From Tribonema minus (lineage: Eukaryota > Sar > Xanthophyceae > Tribonematales > Tribonemataceae): a stretch of 64,000 nucleotides of DNA. Made by a program: the position numbers and the translations under genes. The DNA is taken from the NCBI GenBank assembly GCA_017506865.1, contig JAFCMP010000018.1:248001-312000 (forward strand). Reading direction: 5' to 3'. How positions within the stretch are numbered: position 1 is the stretch's first letter; every line of letters begins with the position of its first letter. The notes beneath the pieces were generated by a model. That model saw only the letters and a program-made list of their open reading frames with translations, did no database searches and was not told the origin of the DNA. Below are positions 16,311-64,000 of this stretch, piece after piece.

Positions 16311-17229
16311 CGCGGGTGGCCACTCTCGCGGCCAGAGCGCTGCTCTCAGTTGCTAGTTAGAGGAAGCGCTCTGGCTTAACACCGCGCAGCGGTCATCTCT
16401 CGCCGCCCCCCTCGACCAAGCTGCAGGATCTTGTTGCGGGATGTGATTTGCTGCACAGCTTGCACGTCAACCGCGCTGCGAGCAGCGACCACGCTCGCAA
16501 AGCAGCGACTTCCAAGTTCCAACTTCTGCGCACGCAACCTTGGCATGTCTGCAGACGTGGAGGGACTTCACAAGTTTTTTGCATCGTGCCGCCGAGTCAC
16601 TCGAAGTGCTTTCATCTTCAAGGGGGCATCCCCCCACTCATATTCAAGTTGGCACCGAGGTGGAAGGCATGCATGCACACGACCGCATCAAGGCAGAACA
16701 GTCACATCAGCAGTGCTGTCAGCAATGTCAGCGTTTTAGGACGCAGCATGAGCGTCAGGGCTGAACTGCTATGGTCCAAAGTGACTTGAACATCATGCCT
16801 GGGACAAGCACCTTTCTTCATATGATTAGTCTGTTTTTCAGGTTGCCTGAGGTCCAATGAGATGATTACTGATCCATGTATGCCAACCGAGGTCACAGCA
16901 CACAGGCCATCAACATTCGGCTGCTGGAAGTGCGGAGTAGATCTACAACTGCTGCCGGCACCAGAGCGTAATGAGTGCTGCGTGCCATTCCTATGTTTGA
17001 GCCCTGCACCAGCACACCAATGACATCATTCATACATCATCATCAATGAATTCGTCAACTCAACTGCAACTTCACCTTGGCGACGCGCGAAAAAGCTTGA
17101 AAAAAGTCAGAGAGGGAAAGGCGAAAGCAAGCACCAGCCTGCGACTGAGTGCACGCCAGACAGAGCAGGTGAATCTAGGCGTGCCGCAGTTGCAGTTAAT
17201 CCGGTTCCCGCACGCTTCTCCCACACGCC
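16311..17229. promoter_or_regulatory. Divergent intergenic region, SAM-ARM gene / F-box gene
   Basis: About 0.9 kb separates the start codons of two genes transcribed away from each other, so it should hold both promoters and 5' UTRs. I see no clear TATA box at a sensible distance and no coding exon. The composition is more even than in the flanking coding exons. Confidence 0.45.
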
Positions 17230-30535: not shown

Positions 30536-33500
30536 ATGAGCGAAACTGCAAGCAAAGATGGGGTAAGGCTGTCAGCAGAACACATTCTGCTGTCCGAACA
30601 TGTCCCAAATTGCTGACTTTGCTGTGTTGTGTACTGTCTGCAGCCGTCCTGGAGTGGCGTGCTCACTACACTGACCATCACTGCCATTCAGGGCGGAGCA
30701 GTGTACATCATCTTTGAGCTCTACAGGCGCACCTCGAGGAGCAAAAGGTGACAACATCGGAAGTATGTAGGCATGCTGCGCTGACCGCGGACCTCGAGCT
30801 GCGCCTAGTTTGTAAGCCCACTGTACAAATCTTTGTGTCGGCCTTCAGGAACCTTGTCCACTTGTGCCAAGAGGTGCTCAAGGAAAAGTGAACAAACAAA
30901 ACTCGACGATGGCAACAGCCCAGCAGGCTCGTGTTCGTGGCAGGAGGAGGCATGGTCTACTCTCTCCTTGCATCAACAATGGTTGCCTCTTCGAACTTAT
31001 GGGTGCCAGTATCCACCATCCATGAACACGAGGTTTCCTGTACGTTCCTGTGCTTGGTCTTTAAGCTGCTGCGAACAGTCATCTTGAACTAGCAAAGAAA
31101 TAGACAGCAGCCTAGGTGCGCCAAGCAGCAGCCAGGGCTCTAGCTGTGGGTCCAGCACGCCTGAAGCTGTGAAGCACCGTTTGATCATCTGCTGCCAGGG
31201 TGTGTCGACCAGCATGGGCCCCCCACCCTTGACTCGACGTACCTTCGATGCACTAGTACATACCTGCTGCCACCGAAGCGCAAACCTGACGCTGCTGCTG
31301 CGCTCGCGTCCCCGCCTTTTCAGCGCATATGAGACGCGGCGAATCACGCGGCCGGAGCGGTCTCCGCCGGAGGCGAGCACGGCGCTGCTGGGATGGGTGA
31401 GCTCCGTGCTCGCGGTGAGCGACGAGGAGACGCACCGCTGCGTGGGGCTGGACACGTTCATGTTCATCAGGTGACGCCCCCGCCCCCGCTGAACTTCAAG
31501 TGATAGGCGTAGTGTCAAGGGACGCGCCGCTGCCTGGGGCTGGACACCTTCTCATGTTCATCAGGTGACACACCCCTGTTGAACACCTTCAAGTGATAGG
31601 CGTAGTGTCAAGGCACTTGCATTTGGGCCTGTAGGCGTCAAGTAGTGCGAGGAGATGTGCTGTTGCGTAAGGCTGGATGCTTTCTCGCATTCATCAGGTG
31701 ACGCCCCCCCCCCCCTCCCCAGCTTCAAGTAGGATGTGCAACGTCAAAGGCACTCGCAGTCGGGCCTGTAGTAACTTTAAGTGAAATGCGCAAGTGAAGC
31801 CCTTGCGTTCGGGCTGTAGGCGTCAACTAGGCGGTGGCGAGGAGACGCATTGCTGCGCGGCTGGACACCTTCGTGTTCATCAGGTGACGCTCCTGCCCAA
31901 CTTCAAGTGGGATGTGCAGTGCCCCCAAGGCATTTTATGTTCAGGCTGTACACGTCAAGTAAGCGGTGACTGGGCGATACGCCGCTGCGCAGTGCTGACA
32001 CCTTCATGTTCAATAGGTGACGCCCCTGTCCAACTTCAAGTGAAATGCGCAGCGTCACTTGCGTTGGTGACGAGGAGACGCGCTTCAACGCAGGGCTGCA
32101 CGCTTTCTAATATTTATTACGGTATGCCCCGACTGAACTTCAAGTGGTATGCGCAGTCAAGGCAGTTACGTTCAGGCTGTAGGCGTCACGTAGGCGGTGG
32201 CGAGGCGAGGCGCTGCTGCATGAGGTTGGACACCTCCTGTGCATCAGGTGACGCCCCTGCTGAACTTCAAGTGATGTGCGCAACGTCAAGGCAGTCACGC
32301 TCGGGCTGTTCGCATCAAGTGGGCGTTGCAAGGAAACGCGCCGCAGCATAATGCCGGGCGCTTTCTCGTATTCATCAAGTGACGCCCGCCCCCGCTGAAC
32401 TTCAAGTGAAATCAGCAGCGTCACGGCATCACGCTCAGGCTGCACGTGCCAAGCAGACGACGATGGAGGGATCGGTAGCGCGCTGCGCAGCGCTGAACAA
32501 ATTTCACCCTGATTAGTGAAACCCCTTGTTAGTGAAACCCCTTGCCCGCACCACTGGCTCATCTACATCTCCGCCGCCGCTCTTGTATGCATGCGCACAC
32601 GCTCGCCGTCTCGCAGCGCATACTTGTGTGTGTAGTTACGAACTCTATGCGTGTGCGCCCAGGTGTTGTCGATACAGCGCATCGCATTTCCCGTACGGTG
32701 CTGTATGTGCATGCGCCGTCTCACAGCGTATACTTCTATGTAGTTACGCACCCTGTGTGCGAGCGCCCAGGTGTTGTAGACGCTGTCACTGTACTGCTAG
32801 TTACGCACTCTGTGTGTGCGCGCCCGGGTGGTGTTGATAAAGCGCATCTCAATACCCGCACGGCGCTGTATGTGCATGCGGCGTCTCACAGCGTAGGTAT
32901 ACTTCTATGTAAGTAGTTGCGCACTCTGCGTGTTGAACTTGAAGTTGTTCAAAAGCCCTGTGTCCGTTGCGCTTGTGCGCCCAGTTGTTGTCGATACAAC
33001 GCAGTGCATACCTGTACGCCGCTGTATTGACAACACTTGTGCGGTGTTCGTGCTACAATTATGGTATCATTCACTTTTTCTCTTTCGCTTGTTGTTTGGG
33101 GTCGAAACGGATCTTAATGTATTTATTTATATATATCGTCAGAACAGTTTCATGGAAATTGATCAAAAGATGGTAGAGCTCTTGGAGACAAGGTGTGGTC
33201 AGCCATCAAACTGAATGCCGAATGCCTTCCACCATCGACCGTGTTTTTAATCTACCCCCGGCTGCGCTGCGTGCGTGCGCCGCAGGTTCCTGCGCATGTG
33301 CTTCTTCATCACGGGCGTCTCGTCGGCGTTCGCGCTCGTATTTCTCATACCCATCTATGCGACAGGGGGGGAGCGCAGCAGCGCTTCCACGGGTGCGTAA
33401 TGAAGCAGCTTGTCGCTTCTACGGTCGTGCAACCTTGCCCTTCATAGGCCGCTTGTAACTCCTACAGTCGTACAATCTTGCTCAAAAACTGCCCTTAATA

Positions 33501-36500
33501 GGCTGCTTGTAGCTTCTACAGTCGTGCAATCTTTCTTGGAAAATGCCTTTGACAGGCTGCTTGTAGCTTCTACAGTTGTGCAGTCCTGCTTGTAATAGCC
33601 TCAAATGCGTCTGTGCCATGTCCCAGCATGCCAACACTATGAAAGACGCACTGCACGGCCCGCGCTCGGCCCCCGCTGCACTATCATGACAGATGCCTCA
33701 GTACACAGCATCACATAAGCACCTCAGCACCACCTGACTCTGCTACTTGCACGCCTCCTTTTTTAGCTTCACCGATCGCTGTTTTTAGAATTGCTTCAAG
33801 TTCAGGGCTTAATGTTTTACCTGATTGAATACCTGAAAAAACAGGCCTCGTTGGAGTCCTCTTCACTGTCAGTTTGAGCGAAGAAGCAGATGATGTCACC
33901 GCAGCGGGCCTGGTACAACCTGCTGCCTATCACCCATCAACCCTAGCTAGTGGACAGTGCGAGGCACGTTGCTGCTACTGCTGACGAGCATCGTCTCTGC
34001 CACCGCAGCCGCGCAGACTACAACAGCATGATGTAGAAAAACATGTACTTCAAAGTATCCAATTATAACTATATAGCATACATGTCCATGTATAGAAGGG
34101 CGAACGTGAACGCAAATGCAAACCGAACATCAGATGCTTGCGCCGGATCAATGACACCCGGACAATTGAAGTCCAACTGGAAGTAGAGAGCTCCGAAATT
34201 GGTCGTGCGACGCTTACGCTTAGTCCATCACGCCGGGAAGTCTCTCACAATGTACTTTGCATCAACTCGCTCAGGGCGCGAAAAAGCCCGAATGATTGAT
34301 ATCAAAGCTTATAGCACAAATTTACGTAATTCATGTGACGATCTGAAAGTGTCACAGCGTACTTCAAACGAGGAAACGCGCAAAGGTCGTGAGGCGTCGC
34401 GCAACGTATCGCTATCGACGCGCGCAGGCTTCAGCAGCATCAACATGGCAAAAGTCATCAACGGGATGCTTGCGCCAAATCAATGACCCCCGGACACAAA
34501 AACTCTACCTTGAAATGGAGTATCCACAAAGGTCGTGCGACGCTTACGCTAAGTCGGTCATGCCGGAAAGTCTCTCTCAATGTGCTTTGAATGATAATGC
34601 ATGCCAAGGTCGTGAGACGGCGTGCAACGTATCGCCATTGCTACAACAGCATCAACATGGCAAATGTCGTGAACGGGTCGCACTTATTTATTAAGCTTGT
34701 GGCACACATCTACTGTACGTGTCACGTGACGATCTGAAAATGTCACAGCGTACTTCAAACGAGGAAATGCGCAAAGGTCGTGAGACGTCGTGCAACGTAT
34801 CGCTACTGACGTGCAGGCTACAACAGCATCAACATGGCAAATGTCATCAACGGGTCGCACCGCCTCTGGGCGACGCTGGTGTTCTGGTACGGCTTCGTCG
34901 CCCTCGTCCTGCACTGCTTCTGGCGCGAGTGGCTAGTGTACCTGCCGCTGCGCCAGCGCTACCTCGTGGAGGGCGACGTGGACACACCACAGGAGTACAG
35001 GTGAACCGCGGGCATCTGTGTGTGCCCAGTGTGTACTGCTGTCGCTAGCGTGCATCTTCTATGTATTACGGTTTTGGTATATATACATCTCAGTACCTGA
35101 GGTACACTGTACGCCGCAGGAGTACAGGTGAACTGCAGGTTTTTCGTGTGTACCGGGTCTGTACTGCTGTCATAATGGACTTGTGGATTCCATACGGGGC
35201 TTGCATGACAGCTTGAGTACGTAAGGGACACTGTACGCCGCAGGAGTACAGGTGAACCGCAGGGTGTGTGTACCCGGTGTGTACTGCTGTCACACTGGAC
35301 TGATGAATTGCGTGTATTAGTGCTTGTACTGTATGACAGCATCAGTATATTGAGTTATGCGTTTGTATGCTGCAAACGCTTATCGCGCGTGCAGGCACAC
35401 ATCGGCGCAGGTCAAGCAGTCCATCCCCATGATGGAGCACACGTATGGGCGCACATCTTTTTTTGTTTGGCACACATCGAATAATACATGGAGAAGGCCA
35501 GCTCATTACTCCATATTGGCATGCGCACCCAGTGCAACTCGCTCCGCCTTCACTGCGGTGGACCAGAACTCAAATGTGACGCCCATGTAATCAATTTCAC
35601 TGAGCGCTGCTGCTCTCTCGCGCGCGCGCAGGTACACGCTGCAAGTCGAGTCCATCCCCATGATGGAGCGCAAGCCGGAGCGCCTGTACCGCTACTTCGA
35701 TGAGCTCTTCCCCGGCGGCGTCGTCAAGGTCAACCTGTGCCTCAACACGGAGGAGCTGGAGGCGACGCTCGCGGCGCAGCACGCCGCGCGCAACGCTTAC
35801 GAGGCCGCCGTGGCAGGTACTGACAAATACGCTATCCTTCTATATATATAGAGAGAGAGAAGTATGTACTGTTCGTGTTCTGATTCTGTGCGCTCGTTCT
35901 GATTCTGTGCGCTCAATGTATATATAGATTCAGAGAAGCATAATACTGTTCTTGTTTTAATTCCGCTACGCACAAGCGGAGCCTGCGCCCTGTGCGCCAA
36001 AGCTCGCGATGCAACACGCCTCGTAGGCGCCGCGTACGCGCAGCGCGTACGAGGCCGCCGCAGCAGGTGCGTCACACTCGTTTTCGGTGTGAAGTTGGCA
36101 CGTCGCTCGTACTGTGTGTGAAGTTGTAGCAGTTGAAATGCAGCACTTTGACGAGCTCTTCGCGGGCGGCGGCGTCAAGGTCAACCTATGCCTCAACACG
36201 GAGGAGCTGGCGCAGCACGCGGCCCGCAACGCGAATGAAGCTGCAGTGGCAGGTATGAAGAGCGTAAGGCATTCTCTCCGGCAGGTTCCGGGTGCAGCGC
36301 AGAATGTGTGCTGGAAGGGTGCCGTCATGGCCGGTACATCGCACTCGTATTTCGTGAAGTTGTAGCACTTCAAGTGCAGCACCTGGCTCACCGCCGTTAT
36401 TGGTCGCGCGCGCTGCTTGCTGTGCCCAGTCCAGGATGTCATCGGCAGCGCGCAGCCACAGCGTATGGACCTCTGCGTACGCATGGACAGGCCCTTGGAG

Positions 36501-39500
36501 CGTGCTGACAGAATCTGACACTTTTCTTATTGCTGCTCACTAGCCTCGAATGCTAAAAAGCTTGCACACAGATGTCTTATCGACTACTGTGGGTATGATG
36601 GCACTGTTTGACTCGTGGCCAATGACTGCAGCAGCGGCGACCAATTATTGATGGAAGGCACTTGCGGCTAACCATCCCTTGTCACCTAGAGCTCTACGAT
36701 CTTTTGATTCGTTTCTATGCTGTGTTCCAATGTAGAGAGCTGCTGCGCACTACCCTGTTGCTCCACACCGACAGAGGTAGACATCAAGGTGGCCAATGAC
36801 ACAGAAGACAGACGCCAGTGGTGTGCTGCTAGAAGTGATTGTATTGTGGTCTGTGCACCGGCAGGTGCAAATGCCGTGACCGCCAAGCGTGCAAACGGCA
36901 ATGAGCATGTAACTGCCATGTGCTCCAACACTTAGGGTCAGGCTTCCGGTTAGGGCTCAGCACCGTACCTGCGCGCCAAAGCACTACGCCACGGGCTCAC
37001 TGTTGTTACTGTTTGCTGCATGCGCGCGCTGCCGCAGTCCGCGAGGCGAGCGGTGGCAGCGTTCAGCCGCAGAAGCGACTCGGAGGCTTCCTGTGCTGTG
37101 GCGGCCGGAAAGTGAACGCGATACCCTACTATGAGGTCAGTCGATCGCGCCCCCGTTCGCACTGCTGCCGCCAACACTAAGGCCACCACCGCGTGCTTCC
37201 GTTGCGTTTTGTTGCTTTGGCTTGTTTCCCCCCCCTCGTGTTGCTATCAATCTACCGCTATTGCCATCGCATACTCGGGCATTTGGCTGCCGCCACCTCC
37301 ACCACCGCGCCTGCCGCTGTTGCCAACTTCGGCGCTGCCGTTGCTGCGCCTGCCGCCGCTGACCGCTGCGGACGCCGCATACTCTGGTTGCGTGTTTGTT
37401 GCTTTAGCTGGCTTTTCTCACGTTGCTTTCAATGCCAATACTGCTTATGCACGTTCATCTGGCCACCGCCACCACCACTACTGCCGCCGCTGCCGCTGCC
37501 GCAGCTGCATACTTTGGTTGCGTTTTTCTTGTTGTTGCTTCGGCTTGCCTTCTCACGTTGCTATTTTTATCACATACTGGAAGTACCTTCTAAGTACCAA
37601 TATTGCCAATGCAAGTTCGGTATCTCCACCACACCGCTCCCGCCGCTGTTGCCAACATCGGTGCGCCCGCTGCCGCCGCCGCCGCTGCGCTGCAGAAAGA
37701 GATGGCGCGCCTGACGGCGGAGGCGGAGGCGGCGCACGCGGAGCTTGCATGCTTCTCGCAGGAGCTCGCCGAGTCCGACACGGCTCAGCTGACGCGCGCG
37801 ATGCGCAAGGGCATCAGCATCAAGGGCGGCGTGGACCTCGGCATGGAGGTCGTCGGCATACACGCTAAGGTGGGCGCACTGTGCATGTATGTGTACATGT
37901 AAATAGGGCATCCGCGCCAAGGGTAGGTACCTATCTACACCATGGGTAGGTATGTGTCATGAGAGAGGGCATCAGCATCAAGGGCGGCGGCGACCTCGGC
38001 ATGGAGGTTGTCGGCATACACGCCAAGGTACGTGCGAGGGGGGGGGAGGGGGTATGCATGTATATGTGTATGGAGGGGCATCGACATCCGCCCAACCAGC
38101 AATTTGGGGGAGCACGGACCTGTGACCATGGTGTCGTGGCAGATCTTGCCCTTGAAGTGCAGGCATGCTTGGCCCTAGGGGGAGGGGGGGGGGGGGCGTA
38201 TGCATGTATGTATGCATGTAAACAGGGCACCTACGCCAAGGGTAGTTGTTCGCACCAGGGGCAGGTATGCATGTGTTTGGGCGGATGCGTCAAGGGCGGA
38301 GTTGACCTCGGCTTGGAGGTCGTTGGCATACACGTCAAGGGATGGGGGGGGAAGGTGGAGGGGTATGCATGTATGCATGTATGGTATACACAGCTTTCCT
38401 GTTCCCGAACGCCAACCCCTCCCCCCCCCCCTCCCCTCTCGAGCACGTACCTCCTTACACAGTGGAAGCACAGACTAGGGGATGAGGAATCCCCCGGAAA
38501 AAGCCAATGCACACTACCATCCCCTTCCCCCCCCCGGTCCCGCCGCCCTGAGCACTCCGGTTTCCTTCACCCTAACACCAACCCCCCCCCCCCCAAAAAA
38601 AACACACACACACACAGCTTTCCTTTGCCCTTACCCCCCCCTCACCCCCCCCTTACCCCGCCCCGTGTGCAGTTCCACTCGATAGACGGCGAGCCGCGCG
38701 AGCTCGCGCTCGCGCGCCGCTGGCGCCACGTCACCAGCGCCACCGCCTTCGTTACGCTCAACTCGCTCGTCGCCAAGCAGGCTGCCGTGCAGTGCGAGGT
38801 GTCGGGCGACGCGTTCGCGTTCGCGACGCGCCCCGCGCCGGAGCCGCACGACGTGCTGTGGGCCAACGTGACGGTGCCGGCGGCGATGCAGCGCAACAAG
38901 AGGACGCTCGCCAACTGCCTGTGGGCGGCGGGGGTCGGGTTCTGGGCGATCCCTGTGGCGTTCACGCAGACCATCTCGAACCTGGATGAGCTCAAGAAAC
39001 TGGCGCCGTGGTGAGTTGCGCGACGCATGCGACTCTCACCAGTGAGTGAGTGAGTGAGTGAGTTTTGGGTACTTGGCGCGAGCCCCGTCACGTTCACGCA
39101 GACGATCTCGAACCTCGATGAACTCAAGAAGCTGGCGCCGTGGTGAGTCACGAGTGAGTGAGTGAGTCAGCGAGCAAGTGAGTAGTGGGTTCTGGGCGAT
39201 CCCCGTGGCGTTCACGCAGACGATCTCAAACCTGGACGAGCTCGAGAAGCTGGCGCCGTGGTGCGTTGCGCGACGCATGCGACTCTCACCAGTGAGTGAG
39301 TGAGTGAGTGAGCATTGGGTACTTGGCACAATCCCCATCGCGTTCGCGCAGGCGATTTCGAACCTGGACGAGCTTGAGAAGCTGGCGCCGGGGTGAGTCA
39401 CCAGTGATTGAGTCAGTGAGTGGGTACTGGGCGATCCCGGTGGCATTTACACAGACGAGTCCGAACCTGGACGACCTTAAGAAGCAGGCGTTGTGGTGAG

Positions 39501-42500
39501 TCGCCATGGTACCTTAGGAATGTAAATGAGTGAGTGAGTAAGTGAGTATTAGGTTCTGGGCGATCCCCGTCGCGTTCACGCAGACGATTTTGAATCTGCA
39601 CGAGCTCGAGAAGCAGGCGCCGTGGTGAGTTGCGTGATGCACGAGTCACCAGCAAGTGAACGAGTGAGTGGGTGAGTGGGTGTGTACCTTACGTTGTGCA
39701 GCGGCGTGGGCTGCGGGCGTGCCGCTGTCTAGCCGACTGTGCGTCGAGTATTCCCGTGGCATGTCAACTTGAAGTGCAGTTTGAAGTACGCGCCCTGTGG
39801 CACGCGCCCGGACGAATGCAGACTGCGCGCGCCCCTGATGTGGCCCTGGGTCTTGGGTTAGGACTGCGGTAAGAGTCAGGGTTGGGGTGAGGGTGAGGGT
39901 TAAGGTTTGGGACTGCTTGCGGCACACATTTCTGATCTGCACTTTGCCCCTGCCCCCCCCCGTTCCCCCCCCCCCCTGTTTGTCCAGGCTGTGGATACCG
40001 GCTCCGGGCACCTTGTTCTATGAGATCCTGAGCAGTTATTTGCCGGTGAGCCCTGCTCGCGGCAGCTGTGAAGACAGTCTTGCTGAGCGTTTACTCTAGC
40101 AGGGGGGGCAAGGGTCAGGGGGCAGTCAAGGTGGTGCTCACCGCATTGAAAGAACGGCGCCTGTGACTTGCCAACTTCAAGTACTCAGGGGTAGTCAAGG
40201 TGGTGCTCACCGCCTTGAAGAACGGCGACTGTGACTTGCCAACTTGAAGTACGCGTGCTGCGTTTTGCCCTGCTTGTCAGTGTAGCAACGCTCGAACCAC
40301 ATACCTCATCTGAAATCCCGATCACGCAGGTCATCGCGCTGATGCTGCTCATGATGCTGGTGCCGCGGGCCATCGCCAAGCCCACAAACTTCAATTTGAA
40401 GTATCTTGATCCCCGCACCGCAGTTCGTCGCGCTGATGCTGCTCATGATGCTGGTGCCCTGGGCCATCGCCAAGTCCACAAGCTTCAACTTGAAGTATCT
40501 CGATCCCTGCACTGCAGGTCAGCGCGCTCATGCCGCTTATGATGTTGTTACCGCGGGCCATCACAAAGTCCGCCGTGTTCTTGCAAGTACGCGCTTTGCG
40601 CTCCGCCCTGCTCCCTCGCCAGTGCGGCGCCTCCAACCACAAACTTCAACTTGAAGTATCTCAAACCCCGATCACGCAGGTCATGGCGCTCATGCTGCCC
40701 CATGATGCTGGTGCTTGATTCCCTTCGCATTGGTTCAAAGACATCTGAGTGCCAATGCTGCACCCCGATCATAGATGTCCGTCGGACTGTTTGAACTATG
40801 GTCGATGTTAAGACCGCGAGGTGATCGCTGCCACTGCTCGCAGGTCATCGCGCTGATGCTGCTCATGATTCTGGCACCGCGGGCCATCACCAAGACCGCC
40901 GTGTTTTTGCCGTACGAGCGTTGCGCTTGTTGCCCGGCTCCCACGTCAGTGCAGCGCTGCCTCGAGCCACATACCTCAACTTGAAGTATCTTAAATCCCG
41001 ATCATGCAGGTCATCGCGCTCATGCTGCTCATGATGCTGGTGCCGTGGGCCATCACCAAGTCGGCGGTGTCGTTCATGAGGCTCAAGTCGGCATCGGCCG
41101 TTGACCTCTACGTCTTCAAGTGGCACTTCGGCTTCCAGCTCGCCAACCTGTGGCTCGGTGAGACTTCAATTCCATTTCTGCATGGGCAGGGCAGGGACTT
41201 GCGAGGTTGTAGCGTCAGCGCTCGTTCTCTGCGTGTAGTGTGAACAATCCGCGACAAATCTACATAGTAGAATTAATGATATTTTTCTTCACAGCGTCAA
41301 GCCTGCGCTCAAGTCGGCGTCTGCCGTTGACCTCTACGTGTTCAAGTGGCACTTCGGCTTCCAGCTCGCCAACCTGTTGCTTGGTATGGCGGCTGAGTTC
41401 TTTGTACTGTAAAACTTCAAGTCCAGAAAGGTTTTAGCTCAACTTCATACAATACTTCGCGGTCAACCTTAAGTTTGGCCGCTGTCGCGTGCCCGCAGTG
41501 CTCATCGGCGGCAGCATCTTCGAGCAGTTTGGCGCCCTCAACACCGTCCCGCCAGTGTCATGAATCACGACTCTTGATCGCGGTCGTCTCCGAGTATACA
41601 CCATGAGTTGAAGTATACAACTCCTCAACTTCAAGTAGAAAACTTCCAAGTTAAACTTCAAGCACAAAACATCATGTATAAACTCATATTCGACACACCG
41701 TGAGTTGAATGAAGTCTACACATCTGATATGTGAATCTGACCGCCGCGCCATTGCGCACCCGCAGTGCTCATCGGCGGGAGCATCTTTGAGCAGTTCGGC
41801 GCCCTCAACGCCGACCCTGCGAGCGTGGTCACCACCGTCGCCTCCAAGCATGAACCTCAAACGAAGCACGACTGGACGTCCGAAACCTCCCGCACCATCA
41901 AGTTCAAAACTCCACGTTGTAATTGAGGTTTGACCATTGTTGCTTTATTCGCAGTTCTCATTGGCGGCAGCATCTTCGAGCAGTTCGGCGCCCTCAAGAA
42001 GAACCCCGCGAGCGTCGTCACCACGGTCGCCTCCAGCATCCCCGGCGCGTCGCAGTTCTTCCTCAACATGGTCACACTGGAAGTTACTAAACTGCTACTC
42101 AAATGCCGCTGTCGTGTACACGCAGTGCTCATTGGCGGCAGCATCTTTGAGCAGTTTGGCGCCCTCAAGAAGAACCCCGCGAGCGTCGTCACCACCGTCG
42201 CCTCCAAGCATGAACCTCAGAGCAAGCATGGCTTGAGGGTATAAAACCTCAGTTTTGACGCTTAATGTACTAAAGATAAATTTTTATTTCACCGCTGCTG
42301 CGTGCCCGCAGTGCTCATCGGCGGCAGCATCTTCGAGCAATTCGGCGCCCTGAAGAAGAACCCCGCGAGCGTCGTCACCACCGTCGCCTCCAGCATCCCC
42401 GGCGTGTCGCAGTTCTTCCTCAACATGGTCATCACGTCCACGTACGCGGGACTGTTCATGGAGCTGAGCAGGGTGGTGACCATCGCCGTCAACGCGCTGC

Positions 42501-42517
42501 TGGGCGGGGTGAGGAGC

Positions 42518-42568
<51 letters not shown>

Positions 42569-50091: not shown

Positions 50092-51459
50092 CGTCGCATC
50101 CGCGGCACAGCACGTCCACACGTCTCAGCCGTCAGCGCGCAGCAGGGGCGGCGGTGGCAGCGGCGGCGGCGGCGGCGGTCCCGCTGTGTAGCGTCGCGTG
50201 CTGCGCCGGCCGGCGGCGCGGCTGCGCATGGTGCACGGTCGTGCGCGGTGCGCCTTGCGCGCAAGCGTCTTGAAGTTGCTGCGGCGCGCCCGCCTCATGG
50301 GGGTTCATGCGCTGTGAGTGAGCGAGCGCTGTTGCGCCGCCGCCGCGCGATGCCAGCAGTAGTTGCGTGCGCGGCAGTGCTGCAGAGCGGCAGCGGCGCG
50401 GCAGCGGTGGCCGAGACGGATGGGGAAACAGGCGCCGCCATGACGGCGTCAGGTGCTGCAAAAAGTAGGCGCGCGAATGGCGAAGCGAAGGCACGTCATG
50501 TGGCGGGTCCGATGGGACGGCATACGCTGAGGCGTGTTGAAGAACGGTTGAGCGCTGCCGCACGAAGGCGCAGCAGCAGTTGGGGGGGGGGCAAGGATCA
50601 GATGCTGATTCTCGAGCTTGGTATGCCTCCTGCTTTCGCGTACTTCACGGTTGAAGTTTTCACGGGTTTACGCCGCGTGCGGTGACTCTCCCGCCCTTGG
50701 GCGCGTGTGTGGCCGCGTGCAGTAACAAGTCACCCTGGCGAAACGTGCAGCGGCGGAGTCGGCCCTCCTGGGGAAGTACACAACGTTGTTTCGCGGTGCT
50801 TTTGCCTCGTTTGCAATAGTTTTTGCTGCCAGACTTATCTGGTACACTGGTTCTCATTGGAAATGGCTCCCGGACGAATTGACGTTGCGACAAAGGACGG
50901 TCTGCCGCTCTACTGCGCGCACTGGCTGCGCTTTTATTTCTGCGCTGCTTGCATGCCGTGTGCTGCTTGCAGCTGTGCTGTGTGCTGCTTGCATGCTGTG
51001 CGAAGCGCTTACAGTACCTACAACTAGTAGATGACATCAGCCGTGGAAGTCTCATTCGTGTTGGCACAATGACATGCCTTGCTCGGAGCATCCCATCCTG
51101 TGCATTGACCCATCGTGCAGTGCCTGAAGAAGCGCGTTTGTAGGGGCGTTGTATACACAGCAATAGATTTGAGTGCACCCCACTCATTTCTATGGGCTGA
51201 AGCTCCTTCGACAGAGGGTCAAAGGGCCATGGTGCTCAAGCAACCAGTGCGTGTGAGCGGCGCGAATCATGTGCAGGGAGCCCTTTCACCTCGATTTCAA
51301 GCCACTTGAACTTGAACGTTTGATGTTGTCTCAGCTTGAGCTTGAGGGGTGACGCTCTTCAGTGGGAGAGGTCATCATCACCGACAAAAAGACGTTGCGG
51401 CTGTCGTCCAGAGGGGGTTGACGCAACGCTCTCCAGGCACTGGTGCGATCGAGTAAGCA
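50092..51459. other. Intergenic region, channel A / channel B
   Basis: 50100-50195 is a copy of the end of channel A exon 17, including GGTCCCGCTGTGTAG with the stop codon. The rest should hold the 3' UTR of A and the promoter of B. I see no convincing exon in it. Confidence 0.7.
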
Positions 51460-54400: not shown

Positions 54401-57400
54401 TGGTTAGGCCTCGACAAACATGGTATTCTTGCGGTGACTTGTTTAAATTGTTGCTTGTAATTAGGGGCTGGTCACATGCGATGTGTTGCATGTGGGGCAG
54501 GAGCGGCTACTAGATGGGCGACGACATGTCGCCATGGTGTGCAGTACAATAGGCCTCGACACTGTGGTATCATTGCGGTGAGTAGCGGCGTTGACTGGAG
54601 GTGAGTAGCGGACAAATACGGGCACAGCCGCCGATCGAGCGCCTGCCACCCCCAGGCGTGCTGCATGCAGCTGCATGCTGCCGACACACGTCTCCATGCA
54701 GCAGCAAAACCTACCACGGGTTGTTCAAGTCAAAGTTGAAGTTGCTGGGACGGGCCTCCGCATCGCATCGACAACACGTGGGCGCACGCTGATAGGCTGT
54801 GCAGGGGCGAACGGGTCTGGGCTGTGCGTTTCATGAGACAAAACTTGCAGGGAGGGTTGGTGAGGGTTGGGTTAGGGTTAGGGTCAGCGAACGCATGTTT
54901 CCTTGGCCTGGCGCGGCAGCCTCAAGTAGGGTTAGGTTTAAGTTGGGGTCTGGTTTTCAAGCCTGCCAAGAAAATATAATCCGCCTCCAGCTTCTGTGTG
55001 ATTATTATTATGCACACTTCAAGTTTATAATCCGCCCTCCAGCTGTCTGTGTGCGTGCCCCTTTTGGTGCATCGAAACAAGATTGACGCCATAGCATTCA
55101 TGTTCCCAATGCTTTCACACAGCAAATCCTCGTGATACCGCTGCTGATCAACTTCTTCAACTTCACGCTTTGCCCCCTCTGCTGTGTGTGTGTGCACAGG
55201 TTCCTGCGCATGGGCTTCAAGATCACCGCCATATCATCCATCTTCGCGCTAGTCGTGCTGCTGCCGGTGTATGGCACCGGGGACAATCCAGACCCGGCAG
55301 CGGCAGGTGAGGTTGAAACTTCAAGTGCAAGTGTTCTTGGAGAAGCGTTTTGGATCACCCGGGACAATCAGACTTTGACAAGTGCAACTCAATGTTCAAA
55401 TACCAAGCAGAGTGCTTTCTGGGCTGCAGAGTAGATGAGAACAGCATTGCCCAGGTAGCTCATGCAGCGCTAGCCAATCACTGCATGCGATCTGTCCAGA
55501 AGCAACGCAGGCGAACGCACACAATAACGGCGAATTGTAGAGATTTATGTTGCAATTGCGATTGCATCCTTGCGCACATACTCAAGCGGTATAGCATGCT
55601 CAGTGCGCTGCAAATCCCTGCGAGCGATTCCCATAGATTGTGATTAAACCTACTTCAAACCCTATGCCCTAACTGTAACCCTAACCCCAAGATTGCAACT
55701 GCTCAGCATTGCACGTTTGCCTGTACGCACTGCTCAGCTGAGGGCAGCACTGTTCAGCATCAGTGCCCTCCACTCTGCATGCGGCATCACAACTTCAACT
55801 TCGGCTACCCGGCTTTCCATTCGCTTCGAACACCCTCCGTGCCTCACTTTGTGCCCTCGCGCCTCTACCCCCCACCCTTCCGTTCTCACAGGGTACAACA
55901 GGATCACCATGGCCAACATCACGGACGGGGGGTCGCGGCTGTGGGCCTCTCTCATCTTCTGGTGGATCTTTGTGGCGTTGGTGCTCTACTTCTTCTGGAA
56001 GGAGTGGCAGGCATACATACCGCTGCGGCGGCGGTTCCTCATGGAGGGCGACAGCGACACGCCTGACGAGTACAGGTGCGCTGCCGCTGATGTGCTCTTG
56101 TGAACTCTGACATGAACTGATGTACTCTTTTGAACCCCCCGAACTCCCACGTGAGTACTTGTGGATTGTTGTACAGGTGTGCCGCCCTCGTGTACTCTGG
56201 TGAACTCCCACAATGAGTATACTAGGTGAACTGTAGTGCTTTCGAGGTATATACCTCTCTGGCGCAAGGTGGAGGGCGACAGGGGCACGCCCAACAAGTA
56301 CAGGGTGTACTGCTGGTGTATCCATGATCTCCTGCATGAGTACACAACGTGGTTTGTCACCACACAGGCCCATCGTGGCGTAAAGGAAGCAGGACACTAG
56401 TGTGGCAACCTAGAGAGCTGTTGCTCACTGCCCTGTTGCACGACACCGGCAGAGGCAGACATCAAGGTGACCAATGCAACAGAAGACCGACACCAGTCGT
56501 GTGCTGCTAGAAGTGAATGTATTGTAGTCTGTCTGGAAGTACGTACCTAACCTTAACCCTAGTAATGAACATGTAACTGCCACATGCTCCAACAACTAGC
56601 ATTGATGAATGAAACAGAGACGTGCGCAATGAGTGTACGTGCTTGCCCCCCCCCCCCCCCCCCCCAACCCCTCTTGTTGCGACAGCTGTTCGCGTACCGA
56701 AAAGCACTTCTGCATCTCTTCGGTGCGAGTGACTCAGTCATGGTCACGATGACAGTCACTGTTGAAGTTGAAGCTGAGCTTGAGCGACAGACTGTCCGGC
56801 CGCCATGACCGCGACAGTTATCCTGGGGGCTGTGGCGCGCTGACGATGCGAATGTGGCACGTTACCAGTTGCAATTGCATTTGGAACTGGCGCAGGCTAA
56901 CCCAGCAGCATCACGCAACCGCCAACGCCACATTTCCCGCCTCTTCTCTCCCCGTGTCTCTCTTCTTTTTTTTTTACGATCGTCACTTCAGGTACACGGT
57001 CATGGTGGAGGGGGTGCCCCCCGAGCACCGTTCCTCGCACGTTCTGCGCCACTTCTTCGAGAGAATGTTCCCCAGCGCCGTCGCCTCCGCGCACCTGTGC
57101 GTCGAGACTGAGGAAATCGAGAAGGTCATCAAGGAGCAGCACAAGGCGCGCGACAACTACGAGAAGGCCGTCGCAAGTGAGTATGAGTCCGAGTCATTTG
57201 CCTAACCCTAATGCTGCCTAGTCCCAGCCGTTGACCGCACGTCAAGAACCAGCCCTTGACCTTCACGTCAAAAACCAGCACAAAGGCGCGCCGACAATGC
57301 CGTTGTGTGTCTGAGTCCGAGTCCTTAGCCTAACCCTAACTACGCCTAATCCCAGCCTTAACCCTCACATCAAGGATCAGCATGCGACAACTATGAGAAG

Positions 57401-60400
57401 GCCGCCGAATGTAAGGCTCGAGCTGTGAAGCTCATCTTCAACCCTAACCCTGACACCTATATAAACCCTACGCTTAACATACTAGAGCAGCCTGTTGGTA
57501 CCCCCCCTGGCCATGACCCTAACCCTAATTCTGATCCAATTTCCGACAGCATGGAGCAGCACAAGGTGCACGACAGTAAGCTGGCCGTCGCAAGTGAGCT
57601 GATCCATGTGATTCAACCACAACCCATACCCCAAGTCGGTGCAGCTCAAGACTAATACTGCACACTGACCTACATGGTCTCCGCACCGAACCCCAGTTCA
57701 CCCTGATCCTGCACCTGTCCCTGGTCCCAGTGGCAATGTTATTGAGGCAGGAGTGTGCAAATGTCCATGACCGCAGTTGTTTGCCCGGCGGGAGGGGCAA
57801 GGTTTGCTGGTAGGAAGTAATGTGTTCATTCTGCGCTGTTTTTGTGCCCCGCTGTAAGCGGCGATCAACGGATGGTGCGAGCGTGCATGTACTTGGAAGT
57901 ACGTATGCATTGGGGCGTGGTCGTGGGGAGCACCTCTTGAAGTGTAAACGCGCAGACCTGTACATGCAGCTGCAGATGTCTGTATTTGCAGCCGTCTGGT
58001 CAACCAACCCTAACCCTAACCCTTATGTGCGCCGCCGTGCGTCATCGTGCATCTGCCGTGTCGAGCGCAGTCTAGTGATCACCTCAGCAATCACTCGAAG
58101 AAGGTTAAGTAAGCGCACTCTACGGCTTCCCTCAGCGCCAACTTCACAAAATTGAAGTAAGTACATGCGCAGTCGCGCACAACGCATTTGCCGCAGCTCA
58201 GCTGTCTACACAACAACAACTTCAACAACGACCGCAATGCTGACGTGCCATTCGCGTGCGTTTCCGCGTCGCCGCAGCCTTCTCCGGGGGTAAGAAGCAC
58301 AAGAAGAAGCAGGTCAAGGTCGGCGGCAAGATGTGCTGCGGCGGCCACAAGGTGGATGCTATGGAGCACTACGAGGTGAGGCAATGACTCAAGCGTCACA
58401 CTTCAACAGTTACAGAAGACTTCAAATATGTAGTTGCCATGGAGCACTACGAGTTGAGTTGACGATTGGGGCGTCATACTTCAACACTTGATGTAGACTT
58501 CAACGTGACATTGCATACTTCAACAGACACAGACTTCGATGTCAATTCGCATCCCAAAACTGCGGCAGCGGCAACGTATGAGTGCCAGCAAAGGCCAATA
58601 CTTGTGTATTTGTTTTTTTTGGCGGAGCAATGGCACAATTATGAGTACTGAAAGCACACCAAACAATTGCTATCGCCAGATCTCTGAGCGTTTGCGTATC
58701 CACAGAGGCTTTGAATGGCGCTGGCCGTCTGGCCCTTACTTGCAGCCAGGGTTCGCAGTCACATCATGTGAATTTGCCTTGGCTCATAGGTTGGCAAACA
58801 GCAATTCGGCTGCGCCGCATACACAGCATATGCTGCCACACATTTCTTACATGGGTAATGGGCACAGCTCGAGGTGTCTATTCAATCATCTCCCAATAAA
58901 GTACTGAACTATACATGAAGTATTAAATGAACTTGTATTCATAAAGGCCCCAGGGGAGGCCGATATATATTTAGGGGTTTACTCCAGGGCAGGCCGGGTG
59001 TTTTATGCATTCCTAGGGTTCACACTCCTGTGCAACAGCCGTGAAGTACAATCTATGTTTCCATCAAAATGAAATGACCACTTCCTTTTTTATATGAAAA
59101 GCCGTCACAGTTACAGCAGTGCTGCCGGCACGCACATCCTTAATTGGTACGCCGTGGGAAGTAAACATGCCTCAATGTAGGGCAAGGACAGCTGGAATGT
59201 ATTGCCGTTGTGCAGCGGCAGTGGCAGTGCTGCCGCAGAACACAAGCGCTGTCGCAGCGCGCGTCGCTGCCGGTGCTCTGTGCAGCAACGAATGCGCTGA
59301 CAACTGCTGCTTGCATCCGCAAACATGCTGAAAACAACTGCTCGCAAGAAGATCAACTGCCGTTATACTATAACTCTGTAAAACGTTAAAGCAAGGTTTT
59401 CTAAGCTTTTAACACAGGTTCGACTCCTATTAGATGTAATATGTACTTATTCACAATGAATAACAAAGTTGCTGAACAAGTTCAACTCATTGTTGAATTC
59501 AAATGCTTAAAAAATATACAAATTAACAAACATCACGGGATGCGCGCGAAAAGCACCATGACCGTCTCTCCGCGGCGGCGGCGGCGCCTCCGCAGCAGCG
59601 GCTGCCGCTGCTGCCGCGCACAAACGGCACTGACGCGCAGCGCGCCGCTGCCGTCGCCGCCGCCCCCCTCCCCCCCCGCGCATTGCACCTGCAGGCCGAG
59701 GCTTCGCGCCTTGCGCACGAGGGGGAACTGAAGCGACGCGACGTGACAGGGTTTCAGCAGGAGATGGATGCGCGGAGCGACGATGCGCTGCGCCGTGACG
59801 CGCGCGCACTCAGCGACAGCGGCGGCAGCGGCGGCGGCGGCGGCGGCGGCGCGGGCGGCAAGGCAGAGGGCGGGCTGAAGCACGTGGTGTCCAAGGTCAC
59901 GGGACATGTAAGCGCTGCGATATGCGTTACGTCTTCTGCTTGCAAATAGATAAGAGTGGCCCGGAATCGCATCGCCTGGAAGCCTTTGGCATGTGGCAAG
60001 TGAGCCTATTATTGTGATGGATGTTGGTGACGGCGGCGCGAGCAGCAAGCTAAAGGGCGGGCTGAAGAACGTGGTGGTAAAGGTCACAGGACATGTCAGC
60101 GACAGCACTGTGAATACATTCGTTGATATATTGTAAAGCAGGATTACCTCCCCCAGAAGCCTTTTCATGTGGCAATTGAGCCTGCAGATAGTAATTGATG
60201 TCGGCAGCGCTGGTGGCAAGGCGAAGGGCGGGCTGAAGAACGTGGTGGGCAAGGTCACGGGGCATGTGAGTGGCGGCACCGTGATACTTGGAAGTATGCG
60301 TCCACAAGGGTGACGCAAAGCACGGTTAGGCATCAATCAGAGTGACACAGAGCTTGACACAGAAACATCTTCAGCCTGTTGCGGTGCGGTGATTGAGCCT

Positions 60401-63400
60401 GTAGATAGTGATTCACGTCGGCAGCGGCGCGGGCGGCAAGGCAAAGGGGCTGAAGAACGTAGTGTCTAAGGTGACGGAACATGTATGCGAGCGCGAGTTG
60501 GCCGACATGTGTTCTTTCATCACCAGCATACTACGCCAACAAAATTTGCATCAGAGCCAGCGCGCCTGCCCTGCCCTGATCGACCGCCGCAATTCAATGA
60601 CCTGACAGTTTTGCTTTCTGAAACGCCGCTGCAAACAAAGTCAGTTTCGCACTCTGAAACGCGCCCCCCCCCCCCCAATTCCCCCCGGTCGCGTCAGGAC
60701 GACGACGAAGAGGCTCTGCCGGCCCGCGAGCGCGAGTTCGCGAACAGGTGGCAACACGTCGCCAGCTCCACGGGCTTTGTGACGCTGGCGTCTCTCGTCG
60801 CAAAGCAGGCCGCCGTGCAGTGCGACATTGCGGGGAGGCCGGGCGCGTACGAGGTGCTGCCCGCGCCGGAGCCGCGCGATGTCATCTGGGAAAACGTCAC
60901 GACGTGAGTTTTGTGAAGTTGAACTTTGAAGTTTGATCTGGTTGCAAGCTGGACCTCCACCATCTGGGTTTTTTTGCGCTCTGAGCGAGAATCAATGAAA
61001 ATTGCATGCTTGACGTGCCGCTTGCTAGTGAGTGTCGACAAGGTCCCGCCCGCGCCATGTCATGGGAGTGTTGAAGTTGAAGTTAAAGCCTGGTGCGGTT
61101 GTGCCAACGTCAAAACCACATGTTGTCACCTGGAGAAGGACGCGAAACATCATTAGTACTTGAGGTCTACGTACTGTACAAGCTTATGAGGCATGTTGCA
61201 TGTTTGTTTCGTTTTTTCACATTGCTCCGCAGTGGAGCTGCGCTGCTTTTTCTGGCACTCCCGGGAGCCCAGAGCAATCATGCCAGGAGTTCACACGTAC
61301 ACATGTGTCGCCTGTCATCGGCGCTGCATGACTGCCGTCCGAAGGCGTAGAGTAACACAGCATAAGGAGCACTGCAGCTGGTCGATGTTGCCGTACTTGC
61401 AGCAACGGCTACGCCAAGGTCCAGCACGGCTCAGCACTGGCACGCGCAATCCAATCCACATCTCTCAAAGGCGCTGACGTGTCGCTCTCCTAGTGATGCC
61501 GCCCACGCATGGCCTGTTTCATGTACGCAAGCGCGCGCAACCCGCTAACTGCATTGGATCGTTCTCGCATTGCGGTTCTCTCCGCGCACAGGCCCGCCGC
61601 CGCGCAGAAGAAGAAGAAGAGCATCTGCAATGCGTTCTGGATACTCGGCATACTGTTCTGGGTGAGACAACGTCAACTTGAAGTGCACCAAGGGATGGCT
61701 TGTCTTTAGGTCTCTCTCCCTGTGACAGTCCATGCTCTGTATAATATTCTTTGTGGCGATGGCGAGCTGTGTGCTTCAACTTGGGGTTTACCGTGATGGA
61801 GGTGCTTGTTGCTGTTCCTACGGGATGTTTCACCTTCCAACTCCAGTGCTGCACTGCAATATGGAGTAGCGCAGCTAGCAGCAGGGCCTGAAGGGCTCCA
61901 GTACGTTTGACCGAAAAGCATCATGGTGTTTAACCTTGGGCACTTTCCAGGTCACGGCCTGACAACTTCAACTGCAAGTATGTGACGCGCCACAGACAAC
62001 GGTCTAATGAGCCATGCCTGCCCCTGTTGCGCTGCCCGCTGCCAGGCCATACCAGTGGCGTTCACGCAGGCGGTCGCCAACTTGCAGGGGCTCAAGCAGA
62101 AGCTGCCGTGGTGAGCATATATGTGCGCTCACACCCTAACCCGAACCCTAATCCTAGACCTAGCCCTAGGCGAGTATGTATGCGCTCACACCTGGGTGAG
62201 CGCATGTCATTTGGCTGGAAATGCGGTGTTGCTCCTGGCAAAGGCAGCAGTGGGGGCTGAGAGGCATCACGACATTCTGATTGTAACCTGAAGACTCGCT
62301 GCCCACCTCTCAGCTTAATGTGACGCAAATCTTGGCCAGGCCTCACAGCTACCAGCCCCAACACTAACCCTCACTTGGAGAAAAATAACAGTAGGACACG
62401 CTGCTTGCTGCTCAGCATCGTGTCATGCAAATTGTGGGACAGGTATATGTGCCAGCCCTTCTCAGCGGCGCACCTGCGGCCAAATGTGACAGCCTTCAGC
62501 CGAGACTGCTCCCCATGTTCACCGGCCTGACCCACTCCTGGCATTCAGCCCATGTCATTTGGTTGGAAATGCGGTGTTGCACACTAGCAGAGGCAGCGCA
62601 GGAGGGAAAGAGGCATCGCCCGACCGTAGGTGCTGGGCTTACAAGAGTGAACACTACCAAAGCACACACAAGCAAAATGCAATTGTTGTATGGTAGACAC
62701 TGACAGTCATAACGCACGTTCCCTGAGAGCACGCTTAATGCTTAGTACGACAGTGTAGGGCCTGGCCCTTCTCGTACCAGATGAACGTCACTGAAGCAGG
62801 AATTGTCTATACTCCAACAATTGGAATCAGCTGTCCACAATATTGCCATGGTCACCACCATGGTGGACAAGATGCTGCTTGTCACAAGCAGTGTACAGCA
62901 TCTGAAGTGCGCGTGAAAATTGACGTTCATTCTTAGGATCAGGGTTGGTTCTATAAGTGGCTGCTTCTAGGCGCCAATACAGCGGTTTCTCAGCATACCT
63001 CAATATTAACTTTGTGCACCGACCGCTAATGACAGTTATTTTACAAACTCAGTTTGCGCGCTCGCGCGTGTGGTCGCATTCTATAGGCAGCAGTGCACAG
63101 TGACCTTCTCCATCCTGCGCGTGTTGCCTCTGATTAGAACCAGTCCACCAACTCTGTTGCGGTTTCCAAGGTCGCCAAACCCTTGTACGTTCATATCGCT
63201 GGCGCGGGAGTTGGCAGAGTGCGTCATGGCGTACACCCGCGGAGTGCGAATGCTGGGCTTTGTTGCAGCGCCGGTATCCAAGCTCCTAGGGCACAGCGCA
63301 GACTAGGCTGCTGCGTTGACGCAAGCTTTTCGATTGCATAGGCCACCCGGCCTCCCTTGGGCCTTTATAAATACAAGTCCATATGTACGTTCATGCACCC

Positions 63401-64000
63401 CATTGGAGCTGCATCCTCGCCTACTGCAAGTCTAGGAGCGTCACTCCTTACAGAGCACTCTATCTGCTCTTCACAAACTGTGTCACGCTCCTGCAAGCCT
63501 GTTTTCCGTTTCCATTGTGGCCTTGCAGACTCTGAATACCCCCTACAAACAGCTCTCAACCTGTTCCGTTCCCCATTTTCATTGCGCTCTCGGAGACAGT
63601 GGCTACCCCCTACGAACAGCTCTGAACCTGTTTGCCATTTTCATTGCGCCCTTGCAGACGGTGGCTACCACCTATGAATAGCTCTTAACCTGTTCCCCAT
63701 CTGCATTGATCTCTTGCAGGCTGTGGATACCCCCTACAAACAGCTCTTACCCTATTCCCCATTTTCATTGCGCCCTTGCAAGCTTTAAATACTCCTCACA
63801 TACAGCTCTTAACCTGTTCCCCATTTTCAATGATATCTGGGGGGCTGTGAATACTCCCTACGAACAGCTCTCAACGTGTCCCCCATTTGCATTGCGCTCT
63901 TGCAGGCTGTGGATACCCCCTACAAACAGCGTTCTCTACGGCCTCATCTCCGGTTACCTGCCAGTGATTCTCTTCCTGGCGCTCATGGCGCTGATCCCCG
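51460..64000 (+). CDS. OSCA/CSC1/TMEM63-like channel, paralogue B (3' partial)
   Basis: Exons 51460-51486, 51930-52033, 53817-53963, 55200-55306, 55892-56075, 56992-57176, 58278-58375, 59695-59907, 60698-60903, 61592-61661, 62046-62110 and 63906 to the window end join in phase, about 500 codons so far. The order mirrors paralogue A: MTEQASPDS, TM0 (TLVIGVVEGAVLYGVYEC), TM1 (ITAISSIFALVVLLPVY), TM2 (LIFWWIFVALVLYFFWKEW), cytosolic domain beginning YTVMVEGVPPEH, a Lys-rich and then Gly-rich loop (residues about 285-390), the diagnostic PAPEPRDVIWENV, and IPVAFTQAVANLQGLKQKL. Lengths of exons 1-7 equal those of A exactly (27, 104, 147, 107, 184, 185, 98). The region matching A exon 9 is split into three exons, and the junction between A exons 10 and 11 has no intron here. 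Same inferred role as A, in tandem and in the same orientation. Confidence 0.92.
52577..52608. repeat. Interstitial CCCTAA tract
   Basis: Four to five CCCTAA-type units in intron 2 of paralogue B, in the orientation opposite to the 53243 tract. Confidence 0.85.
52650..52735 (-). repeat. Dispersed repeat family 1, inverted copy
   Basis: Read on the minus strand it matches the 3' half of family 1 (TATTGGTGGAAGGCACTTGC, then AACCATCCCTTGTCAC, AGAGCTCTACGATCTTTT). Confidence 0.8.
53200..53816 (+). repeat. Three 5'-edge copies of channel B exon 3
   Basis: Copies near 53215-53242, 53440-53485 and 53668-53735 repeat the acceptor and exon start (core AGCGCATATGAAGCGCGGCC, with variants) before the intact exon at 53817. 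Confidence 0.85.
53243..53326. repeat. Longest interstitial TTAGGG tract
   Basis: About 84 bases of TTAGGG with TTGGGG, TTTGGG and CTAGGG variants, in intron 2 of paralogue B, directly after an exon-edge copy. Confidence 0.9.
54080..54590 (+). repeat. Four 3'-edge copies of channel B exon 3
   Basis: Copies near 54108-54155, 54255-54280, 54405-54437 and 54548-54582 repeat the exon end (GGCCTCGACACCATGGTGTT, then CTTGCGGTGAG), each about 145 bases apart. Confidence 0.9.
56408..56600 (+). repeat. Dispersed repeat family 2 copy
   Basis: It matches 36733-36935: shared AGAGGCAGACATCAAGGTG-like core, GTGTGCTGCTAGAAGTGA, and CATGTAACTGCCACATGCTC at the end. It lies in intron 5 of paralogue B. Confidence 0.8.
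57255..57605 (+). repeat. Three 3'-edge copies of channel B exon 6
   Basis: Copies near 57275-57300, 57372-57412 and 57548-57600 repeat the exon end (AGCAGCACAAGG, GACAACTACGAGAAGGCCG, GTCGCAAGTGAG). CCCTAA-type tracts separate them. Confidence 0.85.
58430..58460 (+). repeat. Short 3'-edge copy of channel B exon 7
   Basis: CCATGGAGCACTACGAGTTG repeats the exon end at 58360-58378, with the donor changed from GTGAGG to TTGAGT. Confidence 0.75.
59340..59545. other. AT-rich island with a tRNA-like segment (possible organelle-derived insert)
   Basis: About 200 bases of strongly AT-rich DNA sit in a GC-rich intron of paralogue B. Within it 59363-59437 resembles a tRNA: T arm with GGTTCGACTCC at 59417-59427, and a seven-base TTTCTAA loop at 59398-59404 that would give anticodon TCT (Arg). 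The acceptor and D arms pair poorly, so it is at best a decayed tRNA. A short AT-rich open frame follows (59441 onward). Confidence 0.35.
59998..60490 (+). repeat. Three 3'-edge copies of channel B exon 8
   Basis: Copies near 60025-60095, 60190-60268 and 60412-60485 repeat the exon end (GGCGGGCTGAAG, then GTGGTGTCCAAGGTCACGGG and the donor) after the intact end at 59907. Confidence 0.92.
62205..62620 (+). repeat. Two-copy repeat in intron 11 of channel B
   Basis: 62207-62275 and 62550-62620 share CATGTCATTTGG, GGAAATGCGGTGTTGC and GAGGCATCRCSCGAC-like ends. Confidence 0.8.
63480..63905 (+). repeat. Six 5'-edge copies of channel B exon 12
   Basis: Units of about 65 bases: TTGCAG acceptor, then GCTGTGGATACCCCCTACAA (exon start), a CAGCTCTYAACCTGTTCCCC spacer and CATTTTCATTGCGC. 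They lead into the intact exon at 63906, which continues instead into CAGCGTTCTC. Confidence 0.95.

Follow-up and report, generated by a model that had tools for sequence, protein, structure and literature searches.

Tandem duplication across an exon boundary is a known route of intron gain, in which the duplicated boundary passes its splice signals on to the new intron. The same inheritance is found in genes A and B, two paralogues in a 64,000-nucleotide stretch of the genome of the yellow-green alga Tribonema minus (the window, positions 248001-312000 of the 497,121-bp contig C18), where most introns hold decayed copies of the adjacent exon edges together with their splice sites. Whereas the known intron gain is one event that yields a new intron, existing introns appear here to have been lengthened repeatedly, and in many sampled genes. 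In Drosophila, tandem duplication of exons with proto-splice sites likewise alters gene structure through local duplication of coding sequence (PMC2891723); the duplications reported there fall inside the reading frame and concern 5 of 31 novel intron positions, whereas the units described here lie across junctions already present and make introns longer. At intron/exon borders, direct repeats have been reported as well (PMC11782384), but these are 4–30 bp long and taken as marks of insertion, while the exon parts found here mostly measure 17–87 nt, come with splice sites and are often arrayed. Competition between duplicated splice sites, decided by proximity, was described by Reed and Maniatis (1986) for in vitro constructs, whereas the alga offers a natural series in one genome. 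Intron growth is often ascribed to transposons, and in the brown alga Ectocarpus 20.1% of the intronic sequence consists of transposable elements (PMC12477816); in contrast to such growth, the introns described here are fed by neighbouring exon edges. Among the papers listed by the literature searches, none was found to report pervasive exon-edge copies in introns, as judged by titles and the openings of abstracts. The two genes are:

30536-50091, + strand: gene A, complete CSC1/OSCA-like channel gene, 17 exons, 829 aa
51460-64000 in the window, continuing to window-equivalent position 70892 (L007:6892), + strand: gene B, paralogue of A, 18 exons, 878 aa

Exon-edge copies in genes A and B

Each exon with 60 bp on either side was compared with both adjoining introns (or with 1.5 kb beyond terminal exons) at a score of at least 44. 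This alignment of introns to their flanking exons, one of the checks proposed with the original prediction, gave 80 direct matches, no inverted ones and none in 20 shuffles. Boundaries are spanned by 72 of the 80; of the other eight, six lie wholly in intron sequence and two extend just a single base beyond the exon. All 31 copies of acceptor edges lie upstream of their source exon and all 41 donor-side copies downstream of it, one of the latter covering the stop codon instead of a splice site. The predicted geometry, with copies of the 5' edge upstream and of the 3' edge downstream of the intact exon, thus holds in 72/72 cases. At least one junction copy is present in 13/16 introns of gene A and 11/17 of gene B, and the expectation of one to eight decayed boundary copies in most introns is borne out in 24 of the 33 introns. 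Identity of the copies to their source ranges from 70 to 98%. Repeated duplication over splice junctions, with copies of differing age and retention of the intact exon only, is likewise supported.

Between the exon edge and the farthest copy lie 50% of intron bases in gene A and 21% in gene B, and intron length correlates with copy number (rho 0.71 and 0.60, respectively). In all seven introns that hold donor as well as acceptor copies, the donor copies come first, and the copies therefore do not flank pseudo-exons. Within the window the copies are distributed as follows, as located by the exon-versus-intron scan:

31531-32409, + strand: A intron 3, six donor-edge copies of exon 3
34366-34683, + strand: A intron 4, two acceptor-edge copies of exon 5
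35111-35441, + strand: A intron 5, two donor-edge copies of exon 5, then one acceptor-edge copy of exon 6
36037-36255, + strand: A intron 6, two donor-edge copies of exon 6
37966-38029 and 38287-38340, + strand: A intron 8, one donor-edge copy of exon 8 and a second copy that ends one base past the exon
39078-39677, + strand: A intron 9, five donor-edge copies of exon 9
40291-40904, + strand: A intron 10, five acceptor-edge copies of exon 11
41307-42211, + strand: A intron 11, one donor-edge copy of exon 11, then four acceptor-edge copies of exon 12
42678-43695, + strand: A intron 12, three donor-edge copies of exon 12, then two acceptor-edge copies of exon 13
44779-44896, + strand: A intron 13, acceptor-edge copy of exon 14
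45372-46528, + strand: A intron 14, one donor-edge copy of exon 14 followed by three acceptor-edge copies of exon 15
46972-47729, + strand: A intron 15, one donor-edge copy of exon 15 followed by one acceptor-edge copy of exon 16
48117-49870, + strand: A intron 16, seven donor-edge copies of exon 16 followed by one acceptor-edge copy of exon 17
50156-50197, + strand: copy of the last coding bases and stop codon of gene A beyond the real stop, a boundary duplication without splice site
53667-53735, + strand: B intron 2, acceptor-edge copy of exon 3
54113-54156, + strand: B intron 3, donor-edge copy of exon 3
57268-57598, + strand: B intron 6, two donor-edge copies of exon 6
58436-58503, + strand: B intron 7, donor-edge copy of exon 7
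60031-60489, + strand: B intron 8, three donor-edge copies of exon 8
63506-63806, + strand: B intron 11, five acceptor-edge copies of exon 12, in steps of mostly 62 bp

The 35 exons of both genes were assembled one by one using homology and open frames, and all 33 modelled introns are GT-AG, having been so chosen. Gene A matches RSN1_TM, PHM7_cyt and RSN1_7TM above the curated cut-offs. Gene B, which ends 6.9 kb beyond the window, is assigned to the same class through its 50% identity to A over aligned residues, and P0002, a protein marked as encoded by the window, has the same three precomputed domains. Both are accordingly predicted to be CSC1/OSCA (TMEM63-like) channel genes. A protein search with gene A, with scoring limited to the 8000 candidates that had the most words in common with it, returned a T. 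minus protein with 72% identity over 67% of the query.

Counterparts in gene B, of the same phase and within three alignment columns, exist for 13/16 introns of gene A, and for these 13 a new intron position was not shown. With the paralogues only 50% identical and the copies about 8% diverged at constrained codon positions, the shared introns predate the copies. The original prediction spoke of introns built from exon edges; the comparison argues for lengthening by copies and does not support building in the sense of creation. Introns 10, 11 and 14 of A and introns 9, 10, 12 and 13 of B lack a same-position counterpart in the other paralogue.

Junction copies elsewhere in the genome

The 158 Mb genome was sampled at 23 anchored stretches and 11 random tiles. 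The anchors (108 loci had been planned) are Pfam hits to Helicase_C (18), Mito_carr (2), AAA (2) and ABC_tran (1), the Helicase_C set being the best 18 by E-value after omission of open frames of at least 400 aa as likely intronless. One AAA anchor (L029, contig C124) was picked after a repeated domain match had been seen there; at L017 (contig C157) repeated matches had also been seen beforehand, yet this locus was included by rank. Exon edges at the anchors were set by codon and splice-site score, a procedure that in leave-one-gene-out trials was exact for 27/31 acceptors and 27/29 donors. Junction copies, none of them inverted, accompany 10/23 anchored exons (9/22 without L029 and 8/21 without both loci). 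When the Pfam-domain part alone was tested, before edge placement, copies were found in 6/23.

A larger set was obtained with an exon finder, which is biased to long exons; its 12 predictions in the gene A region were all exact, gene A being in the training set, and it made none in one shuffled sequence. Outside A and B it yielded 139 usable exons at 30 of the 34 stretches. Junction copies are present at 54 of these 139 exons, spread over 19 stretches (50/133 without L029). The geometry is that of genes A and B in 113 of 114 one-edged matches: all 48 acceptor-edge matches lie upstream, and 65 donor-edge matches lie downstream with one upstream. The remaining matches comprise three of whole exons, 11 internal to exons and 16 intron-only, with none inverted and none in shuffled sequence. 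Confinement to genes A and B, named in the original prediction as one of the findings that would refute the lineage-specific mutational process it suggested, was thus not observed in the sampled loci.

Local direct repeats make up 53% of the gene A region, 0–30% of each of the 23 anchored loci and 0–26% of each of the 11 random tiles (about 5% of the tiles taken together). Gene A is the extreme case in this respect.

Origin of the copies and the limit on their exon part

The copies are probably the product of frequent short, local, direct duplications, the intact exon still being spliced and the introns becoming longer. Such duplications would be frequent in genes of this alga, and a unit lying over an exon edge would supply the intron with an additional edge and the splice site belonging to it. 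Since the intact exon would still be the one spliced, only a longer intron would result, the copy would drift as non-functional DNA while the source exon stays constrained, and repeated duplication would produce the arrays. Splicing of the intact exon would require exon definition, i.e. the choice of the site closest across the exon. As the site of the intact exon is always the outer one, the arrays would be tolerated most easily under this mode. For human alternative splice sites, exon definition is reported to favour the site closest across the exon and intron definition that closest across the intron (PMC9225289). The initiating event may be repair of staggered breaks or slippage. A candidate is the fill-in of 3'-overhang breaks by CST/Pol alpha-primase, which likewise gives short head-to-tail duplications, reported to be the most frequent kind of short insertion (<100 bp) in humans (PMC8355091); the offsets in the alga, in contrast, centre on 157 bp, and many young pairs contain spacers.

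Several observations weigh against this account. Of 183 copies from A, B and the other loci, 38 have intron flanks unrelated to those of the source, 134 have homologous flanks and 11 are ambiguous; the word tandem in the original prediction consequently holds only in part. Even among 16 young junction copies (at least 95% identity over at least 40 exon bp) the flanks are homologous in ten and unrelated in six, and only 4/36 young pairs (at least 90% identity, at least 40 bp) align over 90% of the offset. In genes A and B, arrays at boundaries outnumber intron-only clusters by 32 to 9. Junction copies accompany 52/119 predicted exons at the anchored loci and are scarce in the random tiles (2/20), so genes differ in copy load. 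Splice-site use in A and B was deduced from protein homology. Finally, those A/B copies that lack a frameshift or stop have ratios of non-synonymous to synonymous differences of 0.72 (n = 38) and 0.51 (n = 12), against 2.04 in broken copies (n = 19) and 0.18 in two further copies. Some A/B copies may thus have been constrained for a time, or gaps may distort the broken class; the contrast between open and broken copies refers to A and B only.

The 38 flank-unrelated copies are not explained by plain tandem duplication. Gene conversion by the exon may keep rewriting its older copies, or filler DNA may have been placed between source and copy during the duplication; taken together, we give these two options an even chance of being right. 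In six young copies, 95–99% exon identity stands beside unalignable flanks; the donor copy of B exon 16 (window-equivalent 68316-68402), for instance, matches over 87 bp at 97.7% and is separated from its source by a 100-bp spacer unrelated to the sequence following the copy. The nearest offsets have a median of 155 in the flank-unrelated class and of 156 in the rest, which fits old tandem units refreshed by conversion. On the other hand, blocks of 45–120 bp are short for conversion, and a genome-wide search with two spacers gave no second match that would point to a repeat family or a filler source, in a search that skips very common words. The flanks could also have been replaced by later rearrangement. 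Nested later duplications do break some alignments, as in the arrays at 46146-46671, although none is seen here.

The extent of the copied exon part was determined from the single nearest copy at each edge, searching the full length of the intron (or 2 kb). Such a copy is present at 99 of 346 edges, and an earlier estimate that left out the nearest 60 bp of intron was redone to include them. The exon part has a median of 51 nt (5th–95th percentile 17–87) and the copy-to-source offset a median of 157 bp. Exon parts above 88 nt, a cut picked after the percentiles had been seen and with Reed and Maniatis in mind, occur at 5/99 edges, where random placement predicts 36.9 (minimum of 19 in 2000 simulations). 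Genes A and B, which were modelled by hand, have none against 11.7 expected (minimum 4), and the 39 of 99 edges whose alignment covers 85% or more of the offset have 3 against 12.0 (minimum 4). A threshold-free Kolmogorov-Smirnov test of the exon part over all edges gives p = 3.8e-15; when all copies are counted, 10/183 exceed 88 nt. The truncation means that either selection or the mechanism itself acts on where surviving duplications fall. It suggests that only duplications whose decoy stays ignored survive, and we infer selection through splicing, in which longer decoys would be used, although a targeted mechanism could give the same result.

Targeting of duplication to splice junctions, for example through breaks linked to transcription or R-loops, would replace a general process filtered by selection. 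The preponderance of boundary arrays is in line with it, as are the tightly limited exon part (coefficient of variation 0.43, against 1.16 for the intron part) and local repeats that are richer at most anchored gene loci than in most random tiles. However, the 17–87 nt range of the exon part leaves no fixed breakpoint, and duplication also spanned the stop codon of gene A and gave near head-to-tail pairs in stretches that appear by eye to be non-coding. Furthermore, junction copies stay recognisable over a longer time because their source is constrained. If units of 170 bp fell at random in introns of 1 kb, about 29% would lie at junctions, 45% if the constrained source doubles visible life, and about two thirds if the original introns were also near 500 bp. 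The observed 78% is high but not decisive, and targeting is considered unlikely.

Returning to local duplication filtered by splicing, edge duplications may, where exon definition applies, be neutral as long as the exon part stays below about 90 nt, so that introns keep growing. This splicing-gated ratchet is put forward tentatively, and we lean slightly against it. In the constructs of Reed and Maniatis, duplicated splice sites were reportedly switched by the length of the attached exon. If the ratchet operates, the genome would hold, extrapolating from the sample, thousands of natural experiments with duplicated splice sites, and the truncated exon-part distribution would mark the threshold in vivo at which the spliceosome switches to the decoy. 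If exon edges do feed the introns in this way, the copies would be near-neutral and roughly datable, with the constrained source as internal control, and would provide a natural series for splice-site choice with a testable limit on tolerated exon sequence.

Decay of the copies and remaining explanations

Mismatches at codon positions 1, 2 and 3 amount to 7.8, 7.5 and 16.3% in flank-homologous copies (n = 134), to 7.8, 7.2 and 16.6% in flank-unrelated ones (n = 38) and to 9.3, 10.1 and 21.8% in those with ambiguous flanks (n = 11). A ratio of roughly 1:2 arises when the copy drifts freely and the source is free only at silent sites, so that both drift at position 3. The copies therefore appear to drift about as expected of neutral copies of a constrained source.

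Alternatively, the copies could be functional alternative exons or splice sites under selection, which is improbable. The synonymous excess in copies without frameshift or stop would agree with function, and several copies are included in the public T. minus model of gene A, P0001. Scores at or above the 5th percentile of true sites are reached by 91/105 donor copies (acceptors 54/79). A hand-picked class of 14 'sharp' copies looked constrained as well, but this was not seen when formal classes were applied to 183 copies, whose codon-position mismatches are equal in the flank-homologous and flank-unrelated classes and near the neutral expectation. Moreover, 23/31 indels in the exon parts of A/B copies shift the frame, and the nearest-copy offsets follow no multiple-of-three rule (27, 42 and 26 for remainders 0, 1 and 2; p = 0.08). 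Purging of decoy splice sites was likewise rejected: both splice letters (GT/AG) are retained in 161/184 copies, where 0.854 is expected under neutrality at 7.6% divergence, and GT/AG is thus lost no faster than at the neutral rate. Given this retention and the good site scores, the introns contain many good decoys, which have not been purged and are not evidently in use.

Such decoys seem to mislead annotation. Compared with the present model, P0001 lacks the first two exons of gene A, closes with sequence copied from the beginning of exon 16, and contains seven inserts of 14–65 aa, five of which hold copied exon sequence, a warning for gene prediction. The second copy of exon 6 in A intron 6 has 123 exon bp with an open frame and lies within one of the inserts. 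At 36145-36255, the exon 6 copy has an open frame, a donor and an upstream AG, used in frame by P0001, and its single-base codon differences are nine synonymous and one non-synonymous. This copy is the best candidate for a genuine extra exon.

A mobile intron-like element (introner), or a transposon with long target-site duplications, would account for the source-spacer-copy layout of many young pairs. Ordinary target-site duplications are, however, far shorter than the duplicated blocks of 40–120 bp, and the spacers inspected seem by eye unrelated to each other, the two that were searched having no second match within the limit given above; this origin is highly improbable. Assembly artefact is scarcely conceivable, for although the arrays are difficult to assemble, the copies are 2–30% diverged and show codon-position structure.

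The introns of the sampled loci contain short interstitial telomere-like (TTAGGG)n stretches, with 9-mers about 95- to 320-fold over expectation in up to 23/35 sequences; 76 hits fall in gene B, 24 in gene A and none in A/B exons. A motif family, AACTTCAAC / CAACTTCAA / ACTTCAAGT, is about 11- to 19-fold over expectation in introns, in up to 26/35 sequences, and is also absent from A/B exons. As breakpoint marks TTAGGG (45/1261 block ends, 43/1736 controls) and ACTTCAA (54/1261 and 64/1737) were rejected.

Local repeats also occur away from the two genes, in the window's first 30 kb: a 144-bp array lies at 580-1100, and young local direct pairs are found at 24503-24556 and 24825-24878 and at 23196-23275 and 23340-23419. 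An open frame at 17200-17637 encodes an F-box-like domain.

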